A stretch of DNA of 22,233 nt from a virus. The stretch covers positions 1 to 22,233 of the IMG/VR virus record IMGVR_UViG_3300006121_000057; one strand, written 5' to 3'. The notes beneath the pieces were generated by a model that ran no database searches, was not told the DNA's origin, and saw only the letters and a program-made list of their open reading frames with translations. Position numbers and translations under genes: made by a program. Below, piece by piece: positions 6,318-22,233 of the stretch. Numbering within the stretch: position 1 is the stretch's first letter; each line of letters starts with the position of its first letter.

Positions 6318-9300
6318 ATGCCACGGGTAACTATACCGGGGGTCGGCGATGTAATGATGCCTGACTCTATGCCAAGAGATGAAATTATGGCTCGTGCTAC
6401 CGCTATGCAACAAGCGGCTATGACTAAGCAACAAGAAGCGGATTGGCAACCTGACCCTCGTGAACTTGGTATAGGGCAACTTATTGCCGGTGGCGCTAAA
6501 CGTGGATGGGAAGGTACTAAAGGAACATTTTCAGAATTGCTTCCGGCATTAGGTGCATCTGTCTTAGGTAAAGACGAATACGCTAAGCAAAAGCTTGGTG
6601 AATACCAACAACGGATGCAAACCGCAGAGGAAGAAAACCCAACTGCATATAAATCAGTTAAAGATATAGCAGGTCCAACAGGTAGCATATTAGGTTATGG
6701 CGCAGAAACACTTGGCGAACTTGCTCCCGATATTGGAGCTTTTATTGGCGGCGCAGGGGTTGGTGAGATTGGTGGTAAATATCTCGCTAGAAAAGGCGTA
6801 GAAAAAGCGGTTAAAGAACAAGCCGCTAAAACTATAGCTAAAAAAGGTTTGACTGAAGAAGCCGGTAAAGAATATGCTGATAGGTTATTAGCACGAACTA
6901 CAGCTGATGCTGCTGGACAGGCAGCAACTAAAAAAGGTGCAGAGATTGGTTCTAAGACTGGACTTTGGGGCGCATCTTTAGCTACTAACGTTCCTGACGT
7001 ATTTCAAAGTATCTATGAAGATACAGGCGAACTTCACCCCGGTATTGCTTTAACAATTGGTCCGCTGGTTGCAGCACTAGATACATATTTACCCGAAAAG
7101 ATGTTAAGTCAATTAGGTGAAGCGGGTAAGAAACGTATTGCTGCAGGTATGCTTGAGAAGTCTACTGTCGTACCCCCCACATTTAAGAAAGCTTTTGGTG
7201 TTGAGCTACTTAAAACAATGGGTGGCGAATCTCTTACTGAAAGCGGGCAACAGGCTTTACAAATTCTTGCATCTCAAATTGCGGGAGATAAACAAGACTT
7301 TTTCTCTACTAAAAATATTGATAGCATTATTACCTCTGCCGTTAAAGGTGCAGTAGGTGGTACGTTCTTTGGTGCTCCCGGTGCTGCAGTAGAAGCTAGT
7401 CGTAAGATTGCAGATACCAAACAAAAAATCCAAGATCGTAAAGATCAAGAAGCATTAGCAAAACAACAAGCTAGACAAGCATTACAACCTCCCGGTGCAC
7501 CCCAATTAGGATACACCCCACCACCTGGAGGGTATCAACCCGATCTATTTCCGGTTGAAAAATATCAAGCCGAACAAGAACAAGCCGCAAGCGAAGCCAA
7601 AAAACAAGCGGCTATGGACGCATATCGTCCCGACTTTAAACTTGGCGAACAACAACTTGCGCCAATACAAGAAGAACAAACACAAGAACCGCAACCTCAA
7701 CAAATGGAGTTGCCGTTTGAAGAACCCAAAGCTGAACCTATACAACAAGAATTAGATTTAACTGGCGCACGTACTGGGCCGCAGGTGGCTATAGAACAAA
7801 AAGTAGCTGCAGAAAACCAAGCACAATTAGATGCAATTCAACAGAAAAAAGATGAAGCGCAAATTAAATTAAATGATGCTATTGCTGAAACCGATGCACG
7901 AGTAGCCAAAGGTGAAATTGATCGTAGACAAGCGGCTCGCCTTGATTTATTGCACCCATTGCTTGAGAATGTAAATTTACTTAATACCGCCGAACTATTC
8001 CAAGATAAGTTGCGTGATGCAGGTTATGCTAATGTAGAGTTGACTGAAACTGAAAAACGTTTAATAGGTCACGCTAATGATGTTAAAGCTGCTTTTGCGG
8101 AAGAAGAAAGAACTAAGAACGAAGCACCTGAAACAGTTCCATCACCTGAAAACGAATTAACACCAGAAATCACTGGCATCAAAGAAAAAGGTGAAAAAGG
8201 TCCGGCAGGTAAATTAGGGCAGAGAGAATATAAACAACTACAACTGCCTGGTGTACCCTATCCAACCAAACAAGAACGGCGTGCGGCACAAGTTGAACCC
8301 GAAGCCGAGCCGGAACCACAACCTGAAAGCACTGTGCTTGATGCCAATACTTTAAATAGTACGGGCCTGACTAAACAATCTGGTTTTTACAAACAACTTC
8401 TTAACAAAGACTTAGCTAATCCTGAACACCAACAACAGGTCGCAAACGTATTAGTTAGTGTGCGTAGTAACCCCAACCTATCTGCGTCCACCAAGCAAGC
8501 AATTGAAGGTGTGGCAATGAAAGCGTTTAGGAACTTGGCAACCCAACAGCCACTCTTTGGACCTAAAGGTGGTATCGCAAAAGGAGCAGAACGTGCCGAA
8601 CCATCCAAACGAACTGGGTCTAGACCTGTCACTCCCGCAACTGGAACAAGCGTTTCAACACCTAGTAAGCCAGAACCTAAACCCGCCGGAGGAGTTGAAA
8701 AATCTAAACCAGGAACAGTGGTATCTAGTGAGCCACCTGCTAATAAACCTGCAAAGCGAAAAGCTAATGAGTCAAGTACATTAGAGAAAAAAGAAGTTAA
8801 AGCTGAAGCTCCTGCAGAAATTAAAGAACCAGAGATTCCTGAACACGCTTATTTAGATGAGGAACCTAAAGGTGAAGCTAAAACCAAACCAGCAAAGAAA
8901 GCTAGTAAGCCTACTGCTACGACTACCCCTGCCCCAAAGACTGAAAAACAAGCTGCTCGTGGAGCTGTTAAAGATATAAAGTCTAGTGCGTTTGATGAGA
9001 TTGAAAAGTCTATTGAAGAAAAAGAAAGCGTTAACCCAAATGCTAAACCACCCAAAGGTTTAGTCGAAACTATTAAACGTGGGTATACAAACTTCTTTAG
9101 AAACGATGTTAAAAACGACGATGATCATATTGCTGTTGCAGGTGTAATACTTAATAAAAAAGAACAGTCCCCTGCAGAACGTGCGGCGCAAACTTACTTT
9201 AAGAAAATGCCACGCATCATTGATGGACTATTTAATATTTCTTTTGATCTAGTTAATGATACTCCGCAATTTAGATCTACTGGCGAATCGCTTGTTGAAG

Positions 9301-12300
9301 CCGAGTTCTTTAAGGGTATGAATGGTGCAAACGCTAAACTTGCATCTGACTGGATTCGTTCTAATTTAAGCGAAGACTCTGTAAAAGAGTTTGACCATAT
9401 GCTTAAATACTTTGAGAAAGTAAATAAAAACAGTCAAGACATTGTAGATACGCTAGGCCGAGTTTACTTTGGCATGGGTGCTGATGAAACCGTAGATGAC
9501 TACTTGCAAAGGCAGGAAGACGAACGTGAAGGTCTTAATTTAAGACAAGACGCTATTTCTAAGCTTAGCAACATGCTGCATCCAGTAATCATTAGTGCGT
9601 TAGAGAATGGTGATCTTACGACAGCCCTTAACTTGTTAGCCTCGCAGTCAGATGGTTTTACATCTAAGTTAGCAACACAACTTGCCCAAGTAAACGCGGA
9701 TACTAAACTACAAGTTGTTGATAACTTAAAAGATGAATCTGGTAAACCCGTTGCAGGACTGTTTGATCCTAAAACGAATACGATTAAGCTTGACTCTGTA
9801 ACCGGCTTAAACTCTCATGTACTTTTACATGAATCAGGACACGCTGCAACATCTCATGTATTGGATGACCCAAATCATCCAGTAACACGTCAGCTACAAC
9901 AACTATTCGACAAAGTAAAGGATAGTATTCCAACTGCATATGGATCTACAAACTTACAAGAGTTCGTAGCCGAAGCTAAAGCAAATCCTGAATTCCGAGG
10001 AATGCTCAAGTCTATTAACCCAGACGGTCAAAAACATTCTGCATGGGATCGGTTCGTGCGTATCATTGGTAACTTCCTGCGCCGTATGGTTGGTATGGAG
10101 CCTAAGAAACTTGAATCTGCATTTGACCAGGCTGATAGACTGATTGATACTATTATTTCTCCTGCGCCTACATACAGAGATGCCGGGTCTTTATACGCTA
10201 TTAAAACACCGGAACAAACAAACCAATTTATTAGCCGTATAGATAAAGTAATTACTAGCGTTCCTAATATAGACTTGAAACAAAAAGCTGCGTTAAGTCA
10301 ATTAATTAAAAATGGCAACTCAACAGTTAGATCGAACACGTTTGCTTTCTTACCCATGCACGCTATGGGCGAAATTGCCGACCCTCTTTTAAACGGTCTT
10401 GGTAGTAAGCTAAACACTACGATAGATAAAAAAGATGGGTACAAGAAAAAATTAAACAACGAAGCTGATGCAGTTGTTGCGGAAGCTAAGAAAGCAATCA
10501 AAGCTAAACCCGAGCAAAGAGATAGTTTTAATACTGTTGTACATGAGTCTACTATTGCAGGGGTTGATCCTACAAAACCTCGTTCTGAATACGCAGATAA
10601 ATTAGACAGTAGTGGTAACAGGTTAGAAGAAGATTGGGATAAGCTCAATGCCGAATATAAAAAACTAAATCCCGTTTGGCAAAATCTTTATAAAACAATG
10701 CGTGATGCGTACAAGGGTATGTACGAAGAGATTGGCAATGTCATCCAAGAACGCATTGATAGTATGAATCTATCCAAAGAAAATAAGTTCTCTTTTAAAA
10801 CAGAGATCATGGATAAACTTCGTAAGCAGGGTGTGATTGATCCTTACTTTGCGCTTGGTCGTGAAGGTGATTACTGGTTGGCATATCAATATAAAGATAA
10901 GTATGACAGACCGCAACCTGGCTATGAAGCGTTTAAAACTGAACTCGAACGCTCTGCTCGAATAGAGGAACTGCAAAAACTAGGTGGTACAGATATAAGA
11001 CCTTACTCGCAGTTAGCGGAAGTTGATTACCGCCGTGCGCCGTCTGGTTCGTTTGTTAATGAAGTATTGCAAAGTCTTGAAGCTAATAAACCAAAGAATT
11101 TAAGTACAGAAGACAGTGCGCTGTACGACAAGAACACTGACGAAATTATGCGTCTATTTATTAGTACGCTACCCGAAACTGCATTTGCTAAGTCATTTCA
11201 AAAACGTAACAACCGTGCTGGTTTCTTAGAAGATTCTATTGGCGTATTTGAGAATAAGATACGCAGTACTATCCATCAGGTAGCTAGTATGAAGTTCAAC
11301 CCACAAATAAGTGGTGTGGTTGATAATATGCGTGATTTTGTGGACGACATAGGTAGAGGTAAAGTTGAAGGACGTTCAACAAATAACCAACTTGAGAAAG
11401 CATATTACGACGAATTCCATAAGCGTTTGGATTATATTCTTAACCCCAAGAAAAGTTCCGTAGGAAACATACTGTCTTCAGCAGTGTATAACTACACATT
11501 AGGTTTTAACGTATCTTCAGCTTTAGTTAACTTAGCTCAAGTTCCGATGATAGTAGCTCCGTACCTAAAAGCACATTACAAAGATGCTAATATTGCGGCG
11601 GCTATTGGAGAAGCGTCTAAACTATTTATGGGTAGCGGCTCAGAAGCAACTACTAAACTGCTTGGTGGTGAAGGCAAGACTACTAAGTTAGATGTACAAA
11701 GGTCAATCGCCAACTATGCGCCTGACTCTAAAATCGGTAAAAAGTATGCTACCTTTATTAGAGTACTAGGTGAGCGTGGACAGATCGGTCGTTCTCAACT
11801 GCATGAAATGTTGACTGGGGATACTCGTACAGGGTTCCTTGCTAAACTCAATGCCGCATCTGGTTGGATGTTTGCACAGACAGAACGTATGAACCGTGAA
11901 GTAACTATGCTTGCGACATATAACTTGGAGTTAGCTAAACTTAATAAACAAGGTATTACAGGTGAAGCCGCTGAAGAACAGGCAGCTAACCATGCCGTAT
12001 ACACAGCACAATTACTTAACGGTAGTACGTCTGCAGCTGCGGCGCCAAGGATTGCACAAAGTGGTCTTGGTAAATTAATGTTTATGTACAAGAGTTACGG
12101 CGTTACTCAGTACTATATGTTGATGAAAGCCTTTAGAGAAGCTACCAACGGCGAAACCCCCGAAATGAAAAAAGCCGCATGGAGACAGCTAGGCGGTATT
12201 GTGGGTATGACTGCTTTAATGGCTGGTGCTCAAGGCTTGCCAATGTTTGGTGCGGCGGCTATGGTCTATTCATTATTCTGTGATGATGACGACGATGACT

Positions 12301-13025
12301 TGGATACAGTTACTCGTAAGCACTTGGGTGAGTTCTTATATAAAGGTCCACTAGAGTACTTTACTAACCTATCTATTGCCGGTCGTATTGGCTTAAGCGA
12401 TCTTATTGTTAGAGATAACAAAGCAGGGGGATCCGGCACAACATTTAAAGATCAAATTCTTGAAGCTATAGGCGGCCCTGTGCTTAGTATTGGTGAGCGT
12501 ATCGGTCGAGGTATGAGCAAAATATCGGAAGGTAATGTTGAACGTGGCTTAGAAGATTTAGTACCTTCTTTACCAAGCAACATACTCAAAGGCGGTCGGT
12601 ATTTCTTTGAAGGTGCAAATACACTTCGTGGTGATCCAATTACCGGAGAGATTAGCGCATGGAATGCACTGGCTCAATCATTTGGTTTTGCCCCTGCCGA
12701 TTACACAAGACAGTTAGAAATCAATGCCAAAGAAAAAGGTATAGATAAAGCTATATCTACCAAGGCTTCAAAACTTAAGGCTCGTTATTATCTTGCTATG
12801 CGAAAAGGTGATACTGAAGGCGCAAACGCAGATAGAGATGCGCTACTTAAGTTGGGTGAGAAACACCCTGGACTTGGTATTAACGGCGGTACTATCAGCG
12901 ATATATTGGCTAAGTCTAAGAAGGCTCAAGATCGTGCGACTAAAGAGATGGTGCATGGGGTTAGGTTTAGTCCTAGAATGCGCAAAGAAATCTTAGAAAG
13001 CGAAAGAGAGATGGACGGCGAATAA
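6318..13025 (+). CDS. Giant internal virion (ejection-like) protein with HESGH zincin motif and polyvalent-protein C-terminal region
   Basis: The 2235-residue protein starts at an ATG after an AAGGA box. The opening VTIPGVGDVMMPDSMPRDEI resembles the PDG-x-MS-xx-EI N-terminus found in phage internal proteins. Gly/Ala-rich hydrophobic stretches lie near residues 139-150, 242-262 and 341-365. Residues about 366-900 are Gln-, Pro-, Lys- and Glu-rich linkers. HESGH at 1171-1175, with EFVAEA (Glu1215/Glu1219) about 40 residues later, fits a gluzincin-type metallopeptidase. The C-terminal third contains GWMFAQTERMNREV, a GLGKLMFMYKSYGVTQYYML segment, a hydrophobic stretch near 1958-1987, a run of six Asp near 1989 and NLSIAGRIGLSDL. 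These resemble the LPD38/PLxRFG region of large polyvalent proteins, as recalled without a search. Likely role: DNA ejection, with peptidase activity in the cell wall, membrane or cytoplasm of the host. The ORF is intact. Confidence 0.75.
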   Translation: MPRVTIPGVGDVMMPDSMPRDEIMARATAMQQAAMTKQQEADWQPDPRELGIGQLIAGGAKRGWEGTKGTFSELLPALGASVLGKDEYAKQKLGEYQQRMQTAEEENPTAYKSVKDIAGPTGSILGYGAETLGELAPDIGAFIGGAGVGEIGGKYLARKGVEKAVKEQAAKTIAKKGLTEEAGKEYADRLLARTTADAAGQAATKKGAEIGSKTGLWGASLATNVPDVFQSIYEDTGELHPGIALTIGPLVAALDTYLPEKMLSQLGEAGKKRIAAGMLEKSTVVPPTFKKAFGVELLKTMGGESLTESGQQALQILASQIAGDKQDFFSTKNIDSIITSAVKGAVGGTFFGAPGAAVEASRKIADTKQKIQDRKDQEALAKQQARQALQPPGAPQLGYTPPPGGYQPDLFPVEKYQAEQEQAASEAKKQAAMDAYRPDFKLGEQQLAPIQEEQTQEPQPQQMELPFEEPKAEPIQQELDLTGARTGPQVAIEQKVAAENQAQLDAIQQKKDEAQIKLNDAIAETDARVAKGEIDRRQAARLDLLHPLLENVNLLNTAELFQDKLRDAGYANVELTETEKRLIGHANDVKAAFAEEERTKNEAPETVPSPENELTPEITGIKEKGEKGPAGKLGQREYKQLQLPGVPYPTKQERRAAQVEPEAEPEPQPESTVLDANTLNSTGLTKQSGFYKQLLNKDLANPEHQQQVANVLVSVRSNPNLSASTKQAIEGVAMKAFRNLATQQPLFGPKGGIAKGAERAEPSKRTGSRPVTPATGTSVSTPSKPEPKPAGGVEKSKPGTVVSSEPPANKPAKRKANESSTLEKKEVKAEAPAEIKEPEIPEHAYLDEEPKGEAKTKPAKKASKPTATTTPAPKTEKQAARGAVKDIKSSAFDEIEKSIEEKESVNPNAKPPKGLVETIKRGYTNFFRNDVKNDDDHIAVAGVILNKKEQSPAERAAQTYFKKMPRIIDGLFNISFDLVNDTPQFRSTGESLVEAEFFKGMNGANAKLASDWIRSNLSEDSVKEFDHMLKYFEKVNKNSQDIVDTLGRVYFGMGADETVDDYLQRQEDEREGLNLRQDAISKLSNMLHPVIISALENGDLTTALNLLASQSDGFTSKLATQLAQVNADTKLQVVDNLKDESGKPVAGLFDPKTNTIKLDSVTGLNSHVLLHESGHAATSHVLDDPNHPVTRQLQQLFDKVKDSIPTAYGSTNLQEFVAEAKANPEFRGMLKSINPDGQKHSAWDRFVRIIGNFLRRMVGMEPKKLESAFDQADRLIDTIISPAPTYRDAGSLYAIKTPEQTNQFISRIDKVITSVPNIDLKQKAALSQLIKNGNSTVRSNTFAFLPMHAMGEIADPLLNGLGSKLNTTIDKKDGYKKKLNNEADAVVAEAKKAIKAKPEQRDSFNTVVHESTIAGVDPTKPRSEYADKLDSSGNRLEEDWDKLNAEYKKLNPVWQNLYKTMRDAYKGMYEEIGNVIQERIDSMNLSKENKFSFKTEIMDKLRKQGVIDPYFALGREGDYWLAYQYKDKYDRPQPGYEAFKTELERSARIEELQKLGGTDIRPYSQLAEVDYRRAPSGSFVNEVLQSLEANKPKNLSTEDSALYDKNTDEIMRLFISTLPETAFAKSFQKRNNRAGFLEDSIGVFENKIRSTIHQVASMKFNPQISGVVDNMRDFVDDIGRGKVEGRSTNNQLEKAYYDEFHKRLDYILNPKKSSVGNILSSAVYNYTLGFNVSSALVNLAQVPMIVAPYLKAHYKDANIAAAIGEASKLFMGSGSEATTKLLGGEGKTTKLDVQRSIANYAPDSKIGKKYATFIRVLGERGQIGRSQLHEMLTGDTRTGFLAKLNAASGWMFAQTERMNREVTMLATYNLELAKLNKQGITGEAAEEQAANHAVYTAQLLNGSTSAAAAPRIAQSGLGKLMFMYKSYGVTQYYMLMKAFREATNGETPEMKKAAWRQLGGIVGMTALMAGAQGLPMFGAAAMVYSLFCDDDDDDLDTVTRKHLGEFLYKGPLEYFTNLSIAGRIGLSDLIVRDNKAGGSGTTFKDQILEAIGGPVLSIGERIGRGMSKISEGNVERGLEDLVPSLPSNILKGGRYFFEGANTLRGDPITGEISAWNALAQSFGFAPADYTRQLEINAKEKGIDKAISTKASKLKARYYLAMRKGDTEGANADRDALLKLGEKHPGLGINGGTISDILAKSKKAQDRATKEMVHGVRFSPRMRKEILESEREMDGE

Positions 13026-13107: not shown

Positions 13108-13341
13108 TCACAAAATTCTCCAAAAGCGCATCCCTAGTTTTCCAGCTTCAATTCGTTGCGCCCCTTTAAGATTTAGGTTGTTATCTTTTGCAACGATTTG
13201 CATTTGTTTATTCAAAGCTGACAAATTAATTGCCGGTATAAATAGTGATGCCCCTACAACAAAGGCATCCCAGTTTACGTTTATTGGAACCCCATCAGGA
13301 TTCAGTTGCCACCCCTTTGTCCACTGTTTCGGGTACGTCAT
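13108..13341 (-). CDS. Small conserved protein at the end of the replication operon (77 aa)
   Basis: The reading frame starts inside the 3' end of the primase-helicase gene (47-base overlap in another frame) and is preceded by a strong GAGGAG Shine-Dalgarno sequence, which makes it a credible gene. The product has WTKGWQLNPDGVPINVNWDAF, a short nonpolar VVGASLFIPAINL segment, and an ending with RIEAGKLGMRFWRIL. The FIPAIN and RIE-GK-GxRxWR features resemble a small conserved phage protein of unknown function, from memory. It is followed after about 57 bases by the operon terminator, so it is the last gene. No catalytic motif is present, and the hydrophobic stretch is too short to call a membrane segment with confidence. 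Confidence 0.75.
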   Translation of the reverse strand: MTYPKQWTKGWQLNPDGVPINVNWDAFVVGASLFIPAINLSALNKQMQIVAKDNNLNLKGAQRIEAGKLGMRFWRIL

Positions 13342-16126
13342 CTAAAAACTCCTCACAGTTAATATGCAATACATCCGCCGAAGGTAGATTCATATGTGTG
13401 CCTTTGGACATACGCTTCTTACCAATCTTAGCCTTAGTGCGGCCCCGCTTAAGTGCGTCAACAAACCCTTGATAATTTATCTGTTGTTTGGTACACCATT
13501 CTTTAAGTGGCTTAGGATAAATGAATAACATCTTAACGTCGTATTCATACCTTGCGATCATGGCTACTCTCGGCGTTGCATCGGGAATAATTAAATGCTC
13601 TAAGCCAGAGTTGTTGTTAATCCTAGAATCATCCGTGCTTTTAATACGAAGAATGTTGTTGTAGTTTTCAGCTAAGAAGTTTGTAAGTGTGGTCTCGGCA
13701 TCGACATCCATTGCGCTTACCTGCTCCTTGATACTAGATACAGCATTTAGTAACCACTGCACCACTGCCGATACGTTATAGTTTATAAGTCCTGCCTTCT
13801 TAGCCATGAGTAAACCACTAATACCCCCTGCGCCAATAACAGAATGAAACCGATCTGCCGGGCCAAACCCACAAGCCTTATCTAACTTAAGTTGTGTCTG
13901 CTTGTATGTTTCTTCCGTGCCTTTAATATCGTTCATTACATATTGCAGGAACGGCAGATAAGCGTGACCGTAATTACTTAAGATTTTTTCACTAAGTTCG
14001 TCCGTATCTGTTTTTACTAAACCAAGCATAGGATACGCACGGATTTCTAAGATACGCATAGCTTCACCTTTAGGCATAGCCTTGAGGACGCTGATCTTTT
14101 CCATGATGCTTGTGTTGCCGGTACTGATACCGCATTGTTGCCACATCTCACCTCTTGTGCGCTCTTCGTTTGCGCTACCTGACATACGGTTACGTTGTGA
14201 CCCTGATGTATATTGATAGACGAAATCACTTAAGTCTTTAGCGGGTGAGTTAGTTACCTCGTCCATCCATAAACAAATATTTTTGTAACGCTCGGCTCGG
14301 TTCATCTTAGATGCCGCAGTATCAGCTTCCTTGAGAACTAACTTGGTTGGGTTGCCCCAAATACTAGCTCCTGCAAGCATAGCCGTAGTCTTACCAATAC
14401 CTGAGTCCGGACTAAAGATGTGCAGTAACGCTCCGTTGATTGAAGTAAAATCGGTAAAGATAGAACCAAAGCTAAGTCCTATTACAAACTGATGCAGTTC
14501 CATGCCGGGTCGGTTGTAAAACTCCATCGCTTCTTTCCAAGCGTCTAACGTACCCTGAGTTGTAAACGCACCAAACAGTTGTGCCGTAGCACTTGATGGT
14601 GGGTTATGGTCTACTCTATCTGCCCTGATCTCTTTGTCTCCAACAACAAACGCCTCATGCTTCTTGTCCGTCCATCCGAACTGTCTTCTTGCAACATCTG
14701 CCGCCGCATCGTGTTGCATATGATTAACCCATGTAGTTATATATGACATTATTTCGTCCATCTTCATTACGGCAACTCCGTGCATTGCCATATGTTTTCT
14801 AATCTCCTCTTTTGATGTCACGGCTGACAGAGGCACTGTAAATTCTCTAACCCCATCTCGGGGCAAATGTAGTCGAACGACTACCGCTTCTCCAACGTCC
14901 GAATCAACTAATCTCCTTGTAACGTATAAATCATTATGGTAAATCAATACATCTATCTCATCATCTTCTTTTATCACTCGTTTAAAGATACCGCCATTCT
15001 TACCTCTAAAGTACGGTTCAGGGTACTTAGGAATTATGTAAGTCTGCGTATGACCTTGGGGCGCATCGGCAGGGATATCTTCGACAATGTTATCTTCTTC
15101 GTTTGCTTCTTGTACTTCTCGACCTAACACGATTGGGGACTTGATGATCCCTCTGTTATGACAACCTTCGCAACCACCGGGGTTAAATTCTTCAAACTTT
15201 GCACAGGTATAAGGCCCACCCTTGATACCTCTAACTTTTCTATCCGCCATCTCAGGCGAATAATCAGGATGCCCACTAGATATTTTCTCAATGGCTTTAT
15301 CTGCATCAATACAGAACTTAGCTACAGACAGTCCGGCTCTCCACATCGGCTCAGACATTGTGGCTTGATTCTTAATGATGTGCGCTAACTGTTGACAACC
15401 TTCGCCCTTAACAGTTTTGATCAGTATGGTCTTAAATCTATTGGTGTAATTACCTAGGATAGCTTTAGTTACCTCATCCATTTCTCCTCGTGGGATATAT
15501 GGCTTGCGAGATAGGACTACTTCTCCTATAAGATCTTTTACTGTGGTTAACTCAATGGGCGGCGCTGCCGAACCCAGTAAAGTTACAGGTCTTGGCGTAT
15601 CATTCTTGTAATTCAGCGTATCCGGCACGCGGAGAATCCGCACCGAATCTGCGGTTACAACTGGATCGGCATGGAGGTCATTGTCGTCACATAGGCTCTT
15701 TAGCTTCTCAGCCAAGGGTAGCCACTCATCTTTTGATATAGCTTCGGTCAACGCCCAGTATGCGTGTATGCCACCACCCGAATTAACAAGGGATGGCTTG
15801 GGTAATCTTGTAGCTTTACAAAACTGTTTTAAAGACTGTATAGCTTCGGCTTGTGTTTCGTATGGTTTGCCAGGGCCGCAATCAAGGTCAATGAACAACG
15901 ACTTAAGTTGTTTGACATTTGCTGTTTTTCTAGACTTGCCATCATTAAACGTAGCCAATGCGTAATACGCATCATAGCCATTGTCTTTAAGGTTGTGTGC
16001 TACGGCTACCGCATCTTCTAACTTTTCGAAGAACTTTTGTACAGGCTTGTCCGAATCTTTTTTCAGACCAACAATACAATAGTATCCCCCGTCCCCGAGG
16101 ACTTGTTGTAGGAAATCCGTATTCAT
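13295..16126 (-). CDS. Primase-helicase: AEP-like primase fused to DUF927-like helicase
   Basis: The 943-residue protein joins two replication activities. Residues 78-82 FIDLD, 116-124 SGGGIHAYW and 159-174 ADSVRILRVPDTLNYK are the three motifs of archaeo-eukaryotic-type (prim-pol) primases, with Asp80 and Asp82 as probable metal ligands. Residues about 308-323 (C...GGCEGCH) look like a small zinc-binding insert. The C-terminal half has a Walker A loop (SGIGKTT, near 573-580) and Walker B (ICLWMDE, near 616-622), with a wider pattern (WGNP, YQYTSGSQRNR) resembling DUF927 helicases. It would unwind the fork and make primers for the family A polymerase. The ATG has only a modest AGGG upstream. 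Its 3' end overlaps the 77-aa gene. High confidence in the class; helicase polarity is not visible. Confidence 0.88.
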   Translation of the reverse strand: MNTDFLQQVLGDGGYYCIVGLKKDSDKPVQKFFEKLEDAVAVAHNLKDNGYDAYYALATFNDGKSRKTANVKQLKSLFIDLDCGPGKPYETQAEAIQSLKQFCKATRLPKPSLVNSGGGIHAYWALTEAISKDEWLPLAEKLKSLCDDNDLHADPVVTADSVRILRVPDTLNYKNDTPRPVTLLGSAAPPIELTTVKDLIGEVVLSRKPYIPRGEMDEVTKAILGNYTNRFKTILIKTVKGEGCQQLAHIIKNQATMSEPMWRAGLSVAKFCIDADKAIEKISSGHPDYSPEMADRKVRGIKGGPYTCAKFEEFNPGGCEGCHNRGIIKSPIVLGREVQEANEEDNIVEDIPADAPQGHTQTYIIPKYPEPYFRGKNGGIFKRVIKEDDEIDVLIYHNDLYVTRRLVDSDVGEAVVVRLHLPRDGVREFTVPLSAVTSKEEIRKHMAMHGVAVMKMDEIMSYITTWVNHMQHDAAADVARRQFGWTDKKHEAFVVGDKEIRADRVDHNPPSSATAQLFGAFTTQGTLDAWKEAMEFYNRPGMELHQFVIGLSFGSIFTDFTSINGALLHIFSPDSGIGKTTAMLAGASIWGNPTKLVLKEADTAASKMNRAERYKNICLWMDEVTNSPAKDLSDFVYQYTSGSQRNRMSGSANEERTRGEMWQQCGISTGNTSIMEKISVLKAMPKGEAMRILEIRAYPMLGLVKTDTDELSEKILSNYGHAYLPFLQYVMNDIKGTEETYKQTQLKLDKACGFGPADRFHSVIGAGGISGLLMAKKAGLINYNVSAVVQWLLNAVSSIKEQVSAMDVDAETTLTNFLAENYNNILRIKSTDDSRINNNSGLEHLIIPDATPRVAMIARYEYDVKMLFIYPKPLKEWCTKQQINYQGFVDALKRGRTKAKIGKKRMSKGTHMNLPSADVLHINCEEFLDDVPETVDKGVATES
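13349..13354 (-). promoter_or_regulatory. Shine-Dalgarno GAGGAG of the nested 77-aa gene
   Basis: The hexamer lies seven bases before the ATG at 13341 and inside the primase-helicase coding sequence. It is the main reason to accept the overlapping small gene and its start. Confidence 0.75.
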
Positions 16127-16167: not shown

Positions 16168-17046
16168 TTAAACGTCGTCCCACTCACCAACTAAATCGGC
16201 TAGGTTTGGTTCAGCAGTTGCAGTAGCTTTTTTCGTTACTGCTTTCTTAGGTTCTTCTACTTCTTCGGCTTCTACTTTTTCAACAGCTTTAGGCTTGTCA
16301 AGAGATGTAAATACTTTGGGTTTGTTCTTCACACCATCGGTCTGCGCTACTGTCATAGTAATAGCAGAGGTTGCTTCTTGGGAATTGCCTAGGCGTTGAA
16401 TAACTTCGTACTCCTCCTCGGTCACACCACGGATAGGACTAAACACTAACTTAGGTGTAGGACTTGCAGTATCAAAACGCATCTCAGTAACTACACCGGT
16501 AATGGGCAAGCCATTGCTTTTTAAGTGACGTGCGTATGCTTGTAGTGGGAGTTTCTTTTTCTCACCATCACCAAACACAGAAGTAGGCGGTAATACCAAC
16601 TGATAAACTTCTTCTTTGTCAATCTCACCATCAATAATAACGGCAAGGCGTTGCTCGTAACGGCAAGCACGGCTATCGCCTTGTCCTGAACCCTTAATGT
16701 TTTGTGGACAGCTCATGCAGGTAGAAGCCTGCTTTTCTTTCACACCTTCATCGGGGCGCATACCATCGGTTGACCAGCAAGCGGGCGCAACAACTTCACC
16801 TTCCACATAAGATCCTGCATAAAACTTACGAGAAACTTTCGGTGCGGCTTTGATGACGACCACATTCATGGCACGTTCTTCAGACACACGGTACTCTTTA
16901 CCACCGATAAACTCACGGAATACACCACCCTTGATAGAGATACGACGTGCTCCAAGTTCACCACCGGCTAACGCATTAGTGGTATCGTCAACTGCATTTT
17001 TTAAATAGGCTGGCAGTCCACCTTTAAATATTGATAGTTCGCTCAT
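16168..17046 (-). CDS. Putative single-stranded DNA-binding protein (292 aa) with acidic C-terminal tail
   Basis: The N-terminus (MSELSIFKGGLPAYL, then RRISIKGGVFREFIGGKEY) and a beta-rich body lead to a Lys/Glu/Ala-rich linker from about residue 235 and an acidic end, NLADLVGEWDDV. Such a flexible linker and acidic tail are typical of phage and bacterial ssDNA-binding proteins, where the tail recruits partners. Four cysteines (CWSTDG, CMSCPQNIKGSG, RACRYEQR) between about residues 89 and 129 could bind zinc. Relatives, as recalled, are common in phage replication modules but mostly lack a function. The gene has a clear AACAGGAG ribosome site directly after the stop of the HTH gene. The ssDNA-binding role is inference; an unrelated replication accessory is possible. 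Confidence 0.65.
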   Translation of the reverse strand: MSELSIFKGGLPAYLKNAVDDTTNALAGGELGARRISIKGGVFREFIGGKEYRVSEERAMNVVVIKAAPKVSRKFYAGSYVEGEVVAPACWSTDGMRPDEGVKEKQASTCMSCPQNIKGSGQGDSRACRYEQRLAVIIDGEIDKEEVYQLVLPPTSVFGDGEKKKLPLQAYARHLKSNGLPITGVVTEMRFDTASPTPKLVFSPIRGVTEEEYEVIQRLGNSQEATSAITMTVAQTDGVKNKPKVFTSLDKPKAVEKVEAEEVEEPKKAVTKKATATAEPNLADLVGEWDDV

Positions 17047-17058
17047 TGTTTTCTCCTG

Positions 17059-17322
17059 TTAAACATCATCTTCGGGGCTAAAATCTAGGGCAAGTTGGTG
17101 AGGATCAACCTTCACTCTAATGCTCCCATCCTTTTCTTCTACTGGCAAATCACCGCCATTGAGTTCACGCAAAGTCCTCTCCACATCTGAAATCTTAAAA
17201 CGGTATACACCGCCAATCTTCAAAGCCGGAATTAAGTCTTGCCGAATCCATGCACGGACGGTCGATACAGATACAGCGAAATGCTCCGCAATATCTTCTA
17301 TCGGGACAAATTTTTCGTCCAT
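17059..17322 (-). CDS. Small excisionase/MerR-type helix-turn-helix protein with C-terminal QLALDF peptide
   Basis: Residues 6-50 (VPIEDIAEHFAVSVSTVRAWIRQDLIPALKIGG, then YRFKISDVERTL) match the compact winged HTH_17/excisionase pattern: helix-turn-helix followed by a wing and the conserved YRF-x-SDVE segment. The total is only 87 residues. The tail, residues 55-87, is charged and probably flexible, and contains QLALDF at 76-81, which fits the hexapeptide clamp-binding pattern QLxLx(L/F). Its ATG shares one base with the previous stop (TAATG) and has AAGGAG upstream. No integrase is seen nearby, so a role as a transcription or replication-initiation DNA-binding factor is more likely than excision. 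The DNA-binding fold is confident; its target is unknown. Confidence 0.8.
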   Translation of the reverse strand: MDEKFVPIEDIAEHFAVSVSTVRAWIRQDLIPALKIGGVYRFKISDVERTLRELNGGDLPVEEKDGSIRVKVDPHQLALDFSPEDDV

Positions 17323-17717
17323 TATTTTCTCCTTATGGTTACGGAATACTCTGTTGTAGCATTAAGTCCGGGCGGTAGTAAGTCCGGATGCTCTTCTAAA
17401 AATACCTTAGTATTGGTTTGTTGCAAACGTTTCTCCAATAGTTCAGGTACACCATGCTCAAGAACAAACTTGTGCATAGATTCCCAATCCGATGTGGTGT
17501 ATAAAGTCTTGGTAGTCCTGTACACCGTGCCGGAATCTGTTCGTATACTCTCAACGCCTAGGTCTTTCATTTGATCTAAGATAGCCGTCTTAACGGTCTT
17601 CATCTTCTCATCAATGCTACCTATTTGTTCCTCAAGTTCTTTTGCAAGTTCAGCTTTCTTATCTCGCATCTTAATATAAACTTGAGTCAGCTTCTCCAAT
17701 GAAACGCTTTCTGTCAT
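17322..17717 (-). CDS. Conserved coiled-coil phage protein (131 aa), unknown function
   Basis: Residues 1-55 form a highly charged helix (KLTQVYIKMRDKKAELAKEL...MKTVKTAILDQMKDLG), suggesting a coiled coil. The C-terminal half has a VYRTTKTLYTTSDWESMHKFV segment, LLEKRLQQTNTKVFL, and an ending PDLLPPGLNATTEYSVTIRRK. This ending, with LLPPGLN and a basic VTIRRK tail, recurs in my memory among phage replication-module proteins without an assigned function. It is the first gene behind the internal promoter and has a strong extended Shine-Dalgarno sequence, so it is probably made in quantity. Its stop overlaps the start of the HTH gene. A nucleic-acid-binding or Gam-like accessory role is only a guess. 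Confidence 0.8.
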   Translation of the reverse strand: MTESVSLEKLTQVYIKMRDKKAELAKELEEQIGSIDEKMKTVKTAILDQMKDLGVESIRTDSGTVYRTTKTLYTTSDWESMHKFVLEHGVPELLEKRLQQTNTKVFLEEHPDLLPPGLNATTEYSVTIRRK

Positions 17718-17776: not shown

Positions 17777-17804
17777 ATTATATAGCAAATTTTACATTAT
17801 TCAA
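17777..17804 (-). promoter_or_regulatory. Sigma70-type promoter inside the replication operon
   Basis: On the minus strand TTGAAT (17799-17804) is followed after 16 bases by a perfect TATAAT (17777-17782). Four of six bases match the -35 consensus and all six the -10. Transcription would begin near 17770 and lead directly into the 131-aa gene, giving a leader of about 50 bases. The -35 box overlaps the last codons of the helicase gene. A short imperfect inverted sequence (ACTACCGTACTAGT, 17763-17776) sits just downstream of the -10 and could be an operator, perhaps for the HTH protein encoded two genes on; that part is speculative. Confidence 0.7.
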
Positions 17805-19347
17805 GTAGATTTTTGTAAAGTTCAACTAATTTTGTGTTTTCGTCTATTCTATTATCTAATAGTTTGTAAAGATGTCTTTCAGCATTAGACCCTTGAAGCC
17901 TCACAATCGTAACCGGATGGCGTTGTCCGGCTCTATGCACCCGAGCGTTAGCCTGTGCATATATCTCAAGGGACGGAGTTGGCCCCCACCACACAACGGT
18001 ATCAGCCGCAGTTAGGGTTACACCATGAGCCGCCGCTTGAGGTTGGATGATTAGGATTCTTGGGTTAGGGGTAGTCTGAAAACTATGGAATATCTCTGCT
18101 CGTTTACCTGCTGATACGTCACCACTAATGATGTCCGTGGTATAACCGTCCGCATGGAGCTTTTCGGATAGTACCTTGATCGTATTCTTAAACGGCACAA
18201 AGATAAGAACCTTTTGCTTGGTCTCGTCGATTACCTCTTGCAGTACTTTATACCGATTCTTGATATCAAAGGTTAGGGTTTCTCCTGTATCGGAATAGAC
18301 TGCGCCACAAGATATTTGCAGGAGTTTACTTAACCCAACAGCGGCGTTGACCGCCGTAATTTGTTCGCCTGATGCTTGCACCACAAGTTGTTTACGGAGC
18401 ATTTCGTAGTATTTCTTTTGTTGCGTGCTAAGTTCAATCTCCCTTGTGACGTAAGTCATCTCAGGTAAATCTAAACATTCTGCCTTGGTAAACCGGATAG
18501 CCGGTTGCAACGCCTCAAACACAACCTTGTCGGCGTTAGCTTTTGGAACCCATTTAAACTGCGTTACCTTGTGCATTACCATGTCTTTAAAAGCGGTATA
18601 GAATTTGGGAACATTCTTTGGGTTAACAAGTTTAGCCAAACCATACGCATCGACCGGACTTTGGGCGGCAGGTGTTCCAGTCATCATCCAAAGCCAAGTG
18701 TCTGGTTTCAAAAGTCGATTAAGTGTTTTCCACCGAGTCGTCATGGCGTTCTTATAGGCATTAGCCTCATCAATCACGATTAGGTCAAAGCCTCCGTTAA
18801 TAATATCTTCTGCAACGATCTCAACACCGTCATAGTTAATGATGACAAATTCAGAACCGCCATTGATAATTTCTTTTCTCTTGGCTCGGTTACCGTAAGC
18901 AATGTCAACCGTCCTGTGCATAGCAAACTTAAATAAGTCAGCCCTCCATGCCGAGTCCATGATAGACAAAGGGCAGATAACCAATACTCTCTTAATACGT
19001 CCTACCTTCATCAAGTAGTCGGCAGCCCATATAACCGATCCGGTTTTGCCTGTGCCTTGTTCGTTCAAACAAAATGCTCTTGGATTTAGGGTAAGGAATG
19101 ATGCCGTTGTTTTTTGGTGATCAAACGGTTTATACAACCCAGGCCAGTTGTACTGCCCCATGATAGGTGATGGGATGTTTTTTATTTGTAGGTTCTTTAA
19201 AACCTGTGCTTCATCTAAGCCCCAGTTAACGGCAACCTCTGAATGTGTGTCGTGTGTACGAATTACTTTACTCTTTGGAATTACTGTCGTTACTTTACCC
19301 GGGTTCTTTAAATTCAAAAGCAATAGCTTATTGTCTATAACTTGCAA
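17797..19347 (-). CDS. SNF2-type SF2 DNA helicase/translocase (516 aa), TTG start
   Basis: Motifs are in the expected order: FDHQK (76-80), Walker A EQGTGKT (96-102), VICPLSIM (Ia region), the Walker B/DEAH box as VIDEANAYKN (191-200), TGTP (223-226), and motif VI QANARVHRAGQ (465-475) after QAAAHGVTLTAADTVVWW. This is a compact two-lobe SNF2-like translocase like those in phage replication modules; the DEAN box is a variant of DEAH. The start codon is TTG: the ten-base ribosome site AACAGGAGAA lies just before it and no ATG occurs until residue 63, beyond conserved-looking sequence. It probably remodels DNA or replication forks. An internal promoter overlaps its 3' end. Confidence 0.9.
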   Translation of the reverse strand: MQVIDNKLLLLNLKNPGKVTTVIPKSKVIRTHDTHSEVAVNWGLDEAQVLKNLQIKNIPSPIMGQYNWPGLYKPFDHQKTTASFLTLNPRAFCLNEQGTGKTGSVIWAADYLMKVGRIKRVLVICPLSIMDSAWRADLFKFAMHRTVDIAYGNRAKRKEIINGGSEFVIINYDGVEIVAEDIINGGFDLIVIDEANAYKNAMTTRWKTLNRLLKPDTWLWMMTGTPAAQSPVDAYGLAKLVNPKNVPKFYTAFKDMVMHKVTQFKWVPKANADKVVFEALQPAIRFTKAECLDLPEMTYVTREIELSTQQKKYYEMLRKQLVVQASGEQITAVNAAVGLSKLLQISCGAVYSDTGETLTFDIKNRYKVLQEVIDETKQKVLIFVPFKNTIKVLSEKLHADGYTTDIISGDVSAGKRAEIFHSFQTTPNPRILIIQPQAAAHGVTLTAADTVVWWGPTPSLEIYAQANARVHRAGQRHPVTIVRLQGSNAERHLYKLLDNRIDENTKLVELYKNLLE

Positions 19348-19713: not shown

Positions 19714-20373
19714 TCAGTTCCTTCCATTATGTGAACAATCTAACACAAGACAATGTTTCTTGCACAAGCCACTCGGTCTAGGATTCCATACATTACTCTC
19801 ATGGGCAAATTTGAGACGGCTAATCTCCTTCATCCACTTGAGCCACATCTTGTCCTGATTGCTAGAGTCGTAGCTATCTTTTATGAAAGCGTTAGCAATC
19901 ACAAACAACAACCCAGCCCTAACCCTTTTGATTTGGGGGAAGTGCTTAAACACGGCTAGTGCCATCAATTCTAACTGACCTGTGTCCGCATACTTAGCAG
20001 ATCGACCTGTTTTGTAGTCTAAAATCCTCGCTTCTTCGCCATTTAGGATAACCAAATCAGCTATCCCACGCCACCACCGTTTGGGATCGTTAAAATCGCA
20101 CGGTTCTAGCCCTTCGGTCAATGCCATCTCGAATTCGCACAACTTCTCACCCGGCATGGATTTGAGTCCATCCAAGGCATTCTTTGCGAATTTGAATGGT
20201 TCCGGTAATGGAGTACCATTTTTGATATAGAACTCAGCCGCTTCATGGAATTGCTGTCCATAATCCGTAGCCTGTGTAGGGGGTTCAACAACATCCTTTA
20301 ATACCTTTAGGTGATAATATTTCTTTGGGCACTGCCCAAATAGTTTGATGCTAGAGTACGACCATGTAATCAT
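19714..20373 (-). CDS. RecB/Cas4-like PD-(D/E)XK nuclease (219 aa) with four-cysteine Fe-S signature
   Basis: The ATG at 20373 is preferred over the upstream TTG because it overlaps the polymerase stop (TAATG) and has GGAG eight bases upstream. The catalytic set is visible: His43 (YGQQFHEAAE), Glu82, Asp106 (GIADLVIL), Asp119-x-Lys121 (ILDYKTG) and Gln133 (GQLELMA), as in PDDEXK_1/RecB-type nucleases. Cys15 (FGQCPKKYY) at the N-terminus and Cys204, Cys208, Cys213 (GLCKKHCLVLDC) at the C-terminus reproduce the one-plus-three arrangement of the [4Fe-4S] cluster in Cas4 and AddB. It probably degrades or trims DNA ends in replication, recombination or host DNA breakdown. No other CRISPR component is present. 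Confidence 0.85.
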   Translation of the reverse strand: MITWSYSSIKLFGQCPKKYYHLKVLKDVVEPPTQATDYGQQFHEAAEFYIKNGTPLPEPFKFAKNALDGLKSMPGEKLCEFEMALTEGLEPCDFNDPKRWWRGIADLVILNGEEARILDYKTGRSAKYADTGQLELMALAVFKHFPQIKRVRAGLLFVIANAFIKDSYDSSNQDKMWLKWMKEISRLKFAHESNVWNPRPSGLCKKHCLVLDCSHNGRN

Positions 20374-22205
20374 TAACAATCTCCATAAGATTCTCCGAAA
20401 CCGGATTCACAATTTACTGGTAAGCCTTCAGCCCAGTCGGGTGTCCAACGCATACACTCCTCGACATAATTCCTAGCTTCTTCAGCTTCTTCAACTTTCG
20501 CAAGACAAGCAATCGCATCATGGACTGTTAGCACAACATCATACTTCTTAGCGATACGAATCATTTGTTCGCCAATGATACACCGTGCAATAGCTTGGCA
20601 GACATTCTCAATTACTTTACCGCCATAGATTTTATTCCATCCACGACGAGTCTTGTACATATATTGAACACCTTTTTCATCCCTAGTTGCTCTTAAGTCG
20701 TCATAGCGCATCAAGAGTCCGCTTGGTAGTCGTATAGCTTTTTCAAGCGGTACAAGTTGTAGTACGCCTTCTTTACCTAAACGTATTACAGAGCCATTAG
20801 CTAACGCTTGTAAGGCGACTTGAGCTTGTTTCCATATAGAAACAATTTGTGGGTAAGTACTTCTGTACGTATGCACAATTCGCTTTGCTTCTTCAGCCTC
20901 AACTTCAACACCAAAAGTTTTAAGCTGGTTCTTAAATTTCTCCGACCCCATGCCGTAGCCCGCTCCAAGGATAGTCGTCTTACCCACGAACCGCTCCTCT
21001 TTTGTAATCTCTTCAGCTTTCTTACCGTAGATTGCCGATGCCATAAGTTTGTATACATCTTCGCCCTTTCTAAATGCTTCAACTAAATCGTTCTGTCCGG
21101 CAAGCCACGCAAGTGTTCTCGCCTCAATTTGTGAGGAGTCAGAGTCTATGATGACATAGCCCTCGGGTGCTTTTATAGCCTTCTTTAACTTCCCTGCGTT
21201 CTCGCCTCGGCTTGGTAAGTTTTGTAGGTTTAAGTTGTCACCGCCACCCCAACGTCCAGTATGCGCCGCATAATATTTCAGGGGCACTGGCATCAAACCA
21301 CGCTTGGCAATTCCAATAAAGCGTTCTGTCCTAGTTTCTTCTAGTGTACTCTTTGTACCTAGCCTCGCCGCAACTAAAGTCTGCACTCGTATATCGGGAT
21401 GCTCCGCTAAAGCTTTAAACGCCTCATCGTTCTTAGCTAATGCTAAAGTTTCTTTACCTGTGGTTACGCTTATCTTAGTCGGAGGACTAACGCCGTAGAG
21501 TCTAAGTAAATCCGCAAACTGTTGATTAGACGCAAGTTGTGTCGAGTCTGTTATGTCAGCATCCAGTAACAACTTAGCCTTCTTGTCTCTCACCTCATCG
21601 TAGTGCTGTTCAAGTAGAGTCAAGTCTAACTCTAATTTCGGCGTAATAAACATCCGTAGAGTAAGATCAATAAGTTTAAGTTCTTTCTTTGGAAAGCCGT
21701 TGTGCATCATACGACTAAATAGCGCATGGGTAATCTCAACGTCATTGATACAGTAGTCGCCGTACCTACTAAGTTGTTCAGGTGTAAAGTCTTGCCTGTA
21801 CTTGCCGTTGGCTTCATTAACCTCTGTACCCTTGGCTTGTAGTTTATAGCGTTCAGCCATCGCACCTAGACTGCCACCTACTTCAACGCCATGCAATGCC
21901 CTACCCATAGATAACGTATCAGCATAGACTTTAGGCACAATACCAAAACGCTCACTTAGTATAAAACCATCAAACGCTGTGTTATGGGCCAGTAAGATTG
22001 AATCATCCCATGGAAAAGATGTTAACCATTGTTGTATTTCCTCACGCGGGCCAGATGCCCATTCAGTTTCTTCGTTGTTTACTTTGACTGCTACGCCAAT
22101 TACTTCAAAACGTGAGTCACGCACATACTCCTCGGTCGTCAGCTTGGTTAAGCTAAACGTAGCCTTCTCATAATATGTTTCAAAGTCTAGTGTTATTAAG
22201 TTCAT
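20373..22205 (-). CDS. Family A DNA polymerase with 3'-5' exonuclease (610 aa)
   Basis: ATG 22205 (MNLITLDFET) is preferred; a TTG at 22217 would add four residues without a better ribosome site. The proofreading domain has ExoI DFETYY (Asp7, Glu9), ExoII HNTAFD (74-79) and ExoIII YCINDVE (Asp155). The polymerase domain shows HTGRWGGGDNLNLQNLP (315-331), motif A DSSQIEAR (Asp356-Arg363), motif B RFVGKTTILGAGYG (405-418) and motif C VHDAIA (561-566). Motif C has Ala564 where most family A enzymes have Glu. There is no 5' nuclease domain, as in T7-type phage polymerases. It is the main replicase and heads the visible operon. Anything upstream, including the promoter, is outside the window. Confidence 0.93.
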   Translation of the reverse strand: MNLITLDFETYYEKATFSLTKLTTEEYVRDSRFEVIGVAVKVNNEETEWASGPREEIQQWLTSFPWDDSILLAHNTAFDGFILSERFGIVPKVYADTLSMGRALHGVEVGGSLGAMAERYKLQAKGTEVNEANGKYRQDFTPEQLSRYGDYCINDVEITHALFSRMMHNGFPKKELKLIDLTLRMFITPKLELDLTLLEQHYDEVRDKKAKLLLDADITDSTQLASNQQFADLLRLYGVSPPTKISVTTGKETLALAKNDEAFKALAEHPDIRVQTLVAARLGTKSTLEETRTERFIGIAKRGLMPVPLKYYAAHTGRWGGGDNLNLQNLPSRGENAGKLKKAIKAPEGYVIIDSDSSQIEARTLAWLAGQNDLVEAFRKGEDVYKLMASAIYGKKAEEITKEERFVGKTTILGAGYGMGSEKFKNQLKTFGVEVEAEEAKRIVHTYRSTYPQIVSIWKQAQVALQALANGSVIRLGKEGVLQLVPLEKAIRLPSGLLMRYDDLRATRDEKGVQYMYKTRRGWNKIYGGKVIENVCQAIARCIIGEQMIRIAKKYDVVLTVHDAIACLAKVEEAEEARNYVEECMRWTPDWAEGLPVNCESGFGESYGDC

Positions 22206-22233
22206 TAAGTTTCTCAATGTAGTGAAATGCTTT

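Follow-up and report, generated by a model that had tools for sequence, protein, structure and literature searches.

The canonical clamp-binding motif reads Q-phi-x-[L/M]-[F/L] or Q-phi-x-[L/M]-x-[F/L] (PMC11139829, a 2024 review), the most abundant clamp peptide from phage display is LQLELDF, and acidic flanks have been noted in clamp-binding peptides (PMC11139829). Among the closest described systems is TrfA, the initiator of plasmid RK2 (PMC4980987), a DNA-binding replication protein of a mobile element with a motif for the host beta clamp, which the phage protein described here resembles in carrying a candidate motif of the same kind. TrfA is, however, a larger, iteron-binding initiator, whereas the phage protein is an 87-aa Xis/BldC-like winged helix-turn-helix (wHTH) protein with the motif in its C-terminal tail and an acidic tip; a search of intergenic stretches gave no convincing iteron-like direct repeats, though the origin may be located beyond the window. 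The transposases of insertion sequences (IS) are likewise DNA binders of mobile elements, and their motif, weak in consensus, lies close to the C-terminus within variable sequence, but they are enzymes found outside a phage replication operon, and no acidic tip is described for them in PMC4549789. A phage precedent is provided by T4 gp55 and gp33, which combine a variable linker with a hydrophobic-acidic clamp epitope (PMC2988020); unlike the phages analyzed here, in whose searched relatives a bacterial-type clamp was not found, T4 has a clamp gene of its own, and gp33 and gp55 bind RNA polymerase.

Two further clamp ligands share some features with the phage protein. Hda, a host AAA+ regulator, carries the hexameric motif QLSLPL in a disordered segment, and its peptide PAQLSLPLYL binds with a KD of 0.38 uM (PMC11139829); the QLELPL form of two orthologues of the phage protein (L372 and L387) is nearly identical, although the Hda motif is N-terminal, unlike the phage tail. 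Twort Gp168 is also a phage protein that acts on the host clamp, but it occupies the DNA channel and not the motif pocket (PMC11139829). The predicted DNA-binding core of the 87-aa protein is similar in fold to Xis of mycobacteriophage Pukovnik, RacA, and BldC, its best Foldseek matches, which are weak (E of at least 0.04, the best only 0.04, and none at or below 0.001). To our knowledge, a clamp-motif tail is not part of the described function of Xis, BldC, or RacA, and Gp168 is not an HTH protein.

The window, that is, the whole stretch of DNA analyzed (22,233 nucleotides), contains a replication operon on the minus strand in the order family A polymerase, PD-(D/E)XK exonuclease, 118-aa protein, SNF2 helicase, DUF7307 protein, HTH protein, 292-aa Cys4 protein, and DUF927 primase/helicase, and this order is also found in distant relatives. 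An earlier sequence-only reading had described a DNA-binding domain in a replication operon, and the HTH_17 protein indeed lies between polymerase, helicase, and primase genes. The operon features considered below are as follows.

20373..22217, minus strand: family A DNA polymerase (Pfam DNA_pol_A, E=2e-38); the window copy is without clamp motif
17797..19347, minus strand: SNF2-type helicase (Pfam SNF2), used as the survey query
17322..17717, minus strand: DUF7307 (Pam3 gp33-like) protein, 131 aa, upstream neighbor (PF23984, E=3e-6; conserved synteny)
17059..17322, minus strand: wHTH protein (HTH_17/Xis/BldC-like), 87 aa, with a bipartite tail (ORF, Pfam HTH_17, AF2, Foldseek)
16168..17046, minus strand: Cys4 protein, 292 aa, probable phage SSB, with the tip LADLVGEWDDV, which is kept in relatives
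13295..16126, minus strand: DUF927 primase/helicase-like protein (PF06048, E=1.3e-23; PHROG primase/helicase)

The 87-aa protein itself is divided as follows.

17161..17310, minus strand: winged HTH core, residues 5-54 (AF2 pLDDT 81-89)
17098..17160, minus strand: linker, residues 55-75, in which the motif-adjacent columns are hypervariable with indels
17080..17097, minus strand: QLALDF, candidate beta-clamp-binding motif, residues 76-81 (motif scan, alignments)
17062..17079, minus strand: acidic C-terminal tip SPEDDV-COOH, residues 82-87 (family form N-x-[DE]-[DE]-D-[IVL])
Tails in the family, for comparison: QLALDFSPEDDV and QLELDFNPDEDI, and the motif-less EDMLSELDDDI

The 87-aa protein matched Pfam HTH_17 with E=4.4e-11 and 43.3 bits, the curated cut-off being 27. 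In its AF2 model, which was built with 18 homologues, the core elements are E5-7, H8-14, H19-27, E34-36, E39-43, and H44-54, and secondary structure ends by residue 69. The claims of the sequence-only reading about the hexapeptide itself held: QLALDF does occupy residues 76-81 (encoded at 17097..17080 on the minus strand), it strictly matches Q-phi-x-[L/M]-x-[F/L] (PMC11139829), and the tail in which it was said to lie is predicted to be unstructured, with pLDDT 55 for residues 71-80 and 50 for residues 81-87. The motif is located outside the domain core, and its burial there is thus excluded in the model. A scan of the 14 main window proteins showed QLALDF to be the sole instance of QLxLx[LF]. 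No relatives of the HTH protein were found in bacterial genomes, and a PDB sequence search returned a single match, a de novo protein. Xis proteins act with an integrase in site-specific excision; an integrase was absent among the eight operon proteins scanned (Pfam and PHROGs).

Close homologues were collected from 80 IMG/VR loci fetched by protein, and more through alignments. Across 58 unique homologous genes, Q76 is found in 58, L79 in 57, and F81 in 58 (column table), position 2 of the motif is M, L, A, K, or I, and position 3 is A, V, T, or S. In the columns leading up to the motif, the alignment varies strongly and contains indels, and the residues after the motif are also conserved (N/S, P, D/N, E/D, D, I/V). 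The tail of the window's clade can be written as Q-[LM]-x-L-[ND]-F-N-P-[DN]-[DE]-D-[IV]-COOH, preceded by a linker varying in sequence and length, and in this 12-mer N7, D11, and I12 are conserved almost like Q1, L4, and F6, although they lie outside the motif. At least five different Leu codons are used at each Leu position among 80 tails, so selection acts on the protein. A constraint on the DNA, such as a ribosome-binding site, was rejected, because the Leu codons vary and the tail is kept where the next detected gene is distant: this gene begins 12 nt after the HTH stop codon in the window and up to about 200 nt further off in relatives. In some relatives (L013, L017, L062, and L074), the distance from the HTH gene to the start of the 292-aa gene exceeds that in the window by about 130-200 nt.

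The tail is also found well beyond these close homologues. A scan of IMG/VR with a degenerate DNA pattern of the tail, for which we estimate less than one chance match in the collection, matched at least 120 stretches. Among the matches listed, all 116 newly fetched loci encode a wHTH protein with the tail; in 67 of them it belongs to the close type, and in 49 both HTH and linker have clearly diverged. The neighbors were checked for these 49 loci and for a few of the more divergent close-type loci, and all of them adjoin relatives of the window operon genes. The hexapeptides most common among all unique orthologues are QLELDF (20/99), which is the core of the top phage-display clamp binder, then QLEFDF (12 unique), QMALNF, and QLELNF. 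Our literature search on QLELDF found only the clamp review (PMC11139829). Less canonical variants occur in some clades: position 4 is Phe in QLEFDF, and position 2 can be Lys or, as in QAVLNF, Ala. In E. coli tests, binding was weakened both by Phe in the fourth and by Ala in the second position (PMC11139829).

In a survey independent of the tail, three scans with the SNF2 helicase, from each of which the best 80 matches were taken, yielded a set of 105 complete, unique HTH orthologues. Of these best-80-per-scan orthologues, 30/105 have the strict motif, Q[LIMV]x[LM]x[FL], and 42/105 the relaxed form; the corresponding means for shuffled tails are 0.20 and 0.43 (never more than 2 and 3, respectively, in 1000 shuffles), in statistics that ignore phylogeny. 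An acidic stretch with a hydrophobic end residue (I, V, L, M, F, or Y) terminates 93/105 orthologues from the same best 80 matches per scan, which makes this acidic tip, overlooked by the earlier reading, more widespread than the clamp motif (93 vs 42). In a helicase tree built with FastTree from 147 rows, tail-selected ones included, the presence of the motif requires 13 changes, compared with 48 when labels are shuffled.

The expectation of the sequence-only reading that the motif is kept while the surrounding tail varies is therefore borne out in one part and not in the other: it holds in the window's clade, where 39/40 rows of the helicase tree have the motif, and fails in the wider family, about 60% of which is without it. 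Homologues with the same HTH and no motif, which that reading had regarded as evidence against itself, are present outside the window's clade (63/105 among the best 80 matches per scan), and the claim made here is therefore limited to the motif-keeping clades, the window's included. In five lineages (L372, L387, L373, L385, and L415), the hexapeptide, which reads QLELPL (as in L372 and L387) or QLELDF, lies 17-38 residues from the C-terminus with the acidic tip terminal, L457 keeps QMEFDF without the hydrophobic tip, and the linkers of distant orthologues are of very different lengths. We read the hexapeptide and the acidic tip as two separable modules, which would overlap in the window. The whole tail is lost in one clade (L400, L394, L436, L450, L452, and L454); given this loss and the motif-less share of the family, clamp binding would not be ancestral and indispensable, or it would have been lost repeatedly. 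The tail-less clade is a natural deletion series, with an HTH protein of 69-72 aa in the members measured.

Elsewhere in the operon, clamp-motif matches occur in the polymerase (10/102), the Cys4 protein (4/128), the primase (2/32), and the SNF2 helicase (1/160), with none in the others. The polymerase matches lie in segments that are apparently folded, and the HTH protein is the only operon protein with a comparable exposed motif. We also considered whether the polymerase had taken over the motif in clades whose HTH protein lacks it, and rejected this: QLELDL and QMILL of the polymerase occur in motif-bearing clades, in apparently folded segments, and were judged to be chance matches. No phage clamp had been visible to the sequence-only reading in the window, and no bacterial-type clamp was found in relatives of 60-66 kb either. 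Searches for DnaN domain 2 or 3 in 18 relative contigs and for DnaN domain 1 in eight, all of them possibly incomplete, gave no match, and the positive controls were matched; the T4-type clamp (PF02916) had no match in ten contigs, nor did any control genome match it. Phages in which no clamp was found may borrow or block that of the host. Against a role of the clamp stands the family A polymerase of the phage, and we know of no need of family A polymerases for the bacterial clamp. An attempt to identify the host from relatives of the SNF2 helicase led to four MAG contigs with inconsistent bins pointing to different groups, and the host was therefore not assigned.

We consider it fairly probable that the two-part tail (the clamp motif in the window's clade and the acidic tip), carried by an Xis/BldC-like DNA binder, brings the host clamp to phage DNA. 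On the precedents of TrfA, the IS transposases, and T4 gp55/gp33, we propose that DNA is contacted through the HTH and the clamp through the tail. The HTH would bind phage DNA, perhaps at an origin or promoter and in a cooperative manner, QLALDF would occupy the pocket in which the host beta clamp (DnaN) binds its protein partners, and the tail would hold the clamp at the HTH-bound DNA, as TrfA does with its own clamp motif; SPEDDV-COOH, as an acidic, hydrophobic-ended tip, would contact another partner. The outcome of such clamp capture could be aid to phage replication or origin assembly, replication-linked transcription, or hampering of the host. A broader reading is put forward only tentatively: in a large group of uncultured aquatic phages, with no clamp of their own found so far, an Xis/BldC-like protein would place the host beta clamp on phage DNA, at an origin or promoter. 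Such a clamp-capture device would be similar to TrfA or T4 gp33, but with another fold and with the host clamp as its target, and its hook would have been lost or gained several times and have shifted its position in the tail.

The tail could instead be a ligand of a phage protein (the polymerase, the primase-helicase, the SNF2 helicase, or the SSB), the acidic end being the working part and Q-L-x-L a clade-specific extension with no clamp role. The near-universal acidic tip beside the less frequent hexapeptide (93/105 and 42/105, best 80 matches per scan), the conservation of the entire 12-mer in the window's clade, and the co-occurrence of polymerase, helicase, and primase in the operon are consistent with this explanation. 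We nevertheless find it rather doubtful, as five lineages keep QLELPL or QLELDF at 17-38 residues from the C-terminus and the pattern of constraint is that of the clamp pocket.

It is unlikely that the motif binds the clamp in order to block it, a small, abundant phage protein competing with host Pol III and other partners and so shutting off host replication, although this explanation shares the clamp-binding step with the preferred one and the probabilities of the two overlap. Phage inhibitors of the clamp do exist, as exemplified by Twort Gp168 with its use of the DNA channel and not the motif pocket, and a consensus clamp peptide expressed in E. coli inhibits colony formation (PMC11139829). 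A pure inhibitor would, however, need no HTH, and the conserved DNA-binding domain and fixed place in the operon suggest a role at phage DNA.

A third alternative is that the tail mimics the C-terminal tip of SSB and recruits SSB partners. The tip of the Cys4 protein encoded next to the HTH protein, L-x-[DS]-L-[VI]-[GS]-E-W-D-D, is found in nearly all close relatives; the AF2 model of the 292-aa protein has pLDDT 44. In the L175 clade, the Cys4 protein is replaced by an Enc34/T7-type SSB protein (PF10991 over cut-off) that ends in LADIIDNWDD, and in other clades a tip-less Cys4 protein is followed by an Enc34-type-SSB-like protein with the tip, the resemblance being by sequence and the Pfam check covering the L175 protein. 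In the window, we infer, the Cys4 protein acts as the SSB, and the replacement suggests an unrecognized SSB family and movement of the tip between non-homologous proteins. A tip on an Enc34-type or similar protein, in place of one on the Cys4 protein, was observed at L175 (2829-3603), L361, L365, L393, and L339.

In bacterial SSB, the tip consists of acidic residues followed by Pro-Phe-COOH. The HTH tip shares with it the acidic residues and a hydrophobic C-terminal residue, and the neighboring probable SSB is also acidic-tipped (EWDDV), but the HTH tip is without Pro-Phe, and the tip of the probable SSBs, which fall into two families, is another one, approximately L-x-x-[LI]-[VLI]-x-x-[WF]-D-D, and is kept beside the HTH tip. 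Because of this difference between the two tips, SSB mimicry is very unlikely for the HTH protein and was rejected as the main reading. The presence of the clamp motif and that of the SSB tip are likewise unlinked: a link between the motif and the Cys4 acidic tip, suggested by 66 loci with both in raw counts, was discarded, since independent pairs on the tree show none. That QLALDF is a functionless chance match is scarcely credible, for although a six-residue match easily arises in a window of this size, the motif is conserved across the 58 unique clade genes and is in strong excess over shuffled tails in the tail-independent set, and it is, as far as these comparisons indicate, more than a chance match.

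Capture of the host clamp at phage DNA, if true, would give phages with a family A polymerase a route to engage this hub of replication and repair, and would provide a plausible function for a small HTH protein that routine annotation would label an excisionase. One syntenic gene offers an evolutionary series of a short linear motif that is present, moved, or lost, and the benefit of clamp binding to the phage therefore becomes testable. The motif-bearing wHTH protein belongs to a large group of uncultured aquatic phages.

Two observations concern the neighbors of the HTH gene. The best PHROG of the DUF7307 protein is a minor head protein, yet the gene recurs in the replication operon of the relatives examined, and the head annotation therefore looks doubtful. 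A 2235-aa ORF (6318-13025, plus strand) is convergent with the replication operon, and its relatives adjoin the same operon in many contigs.
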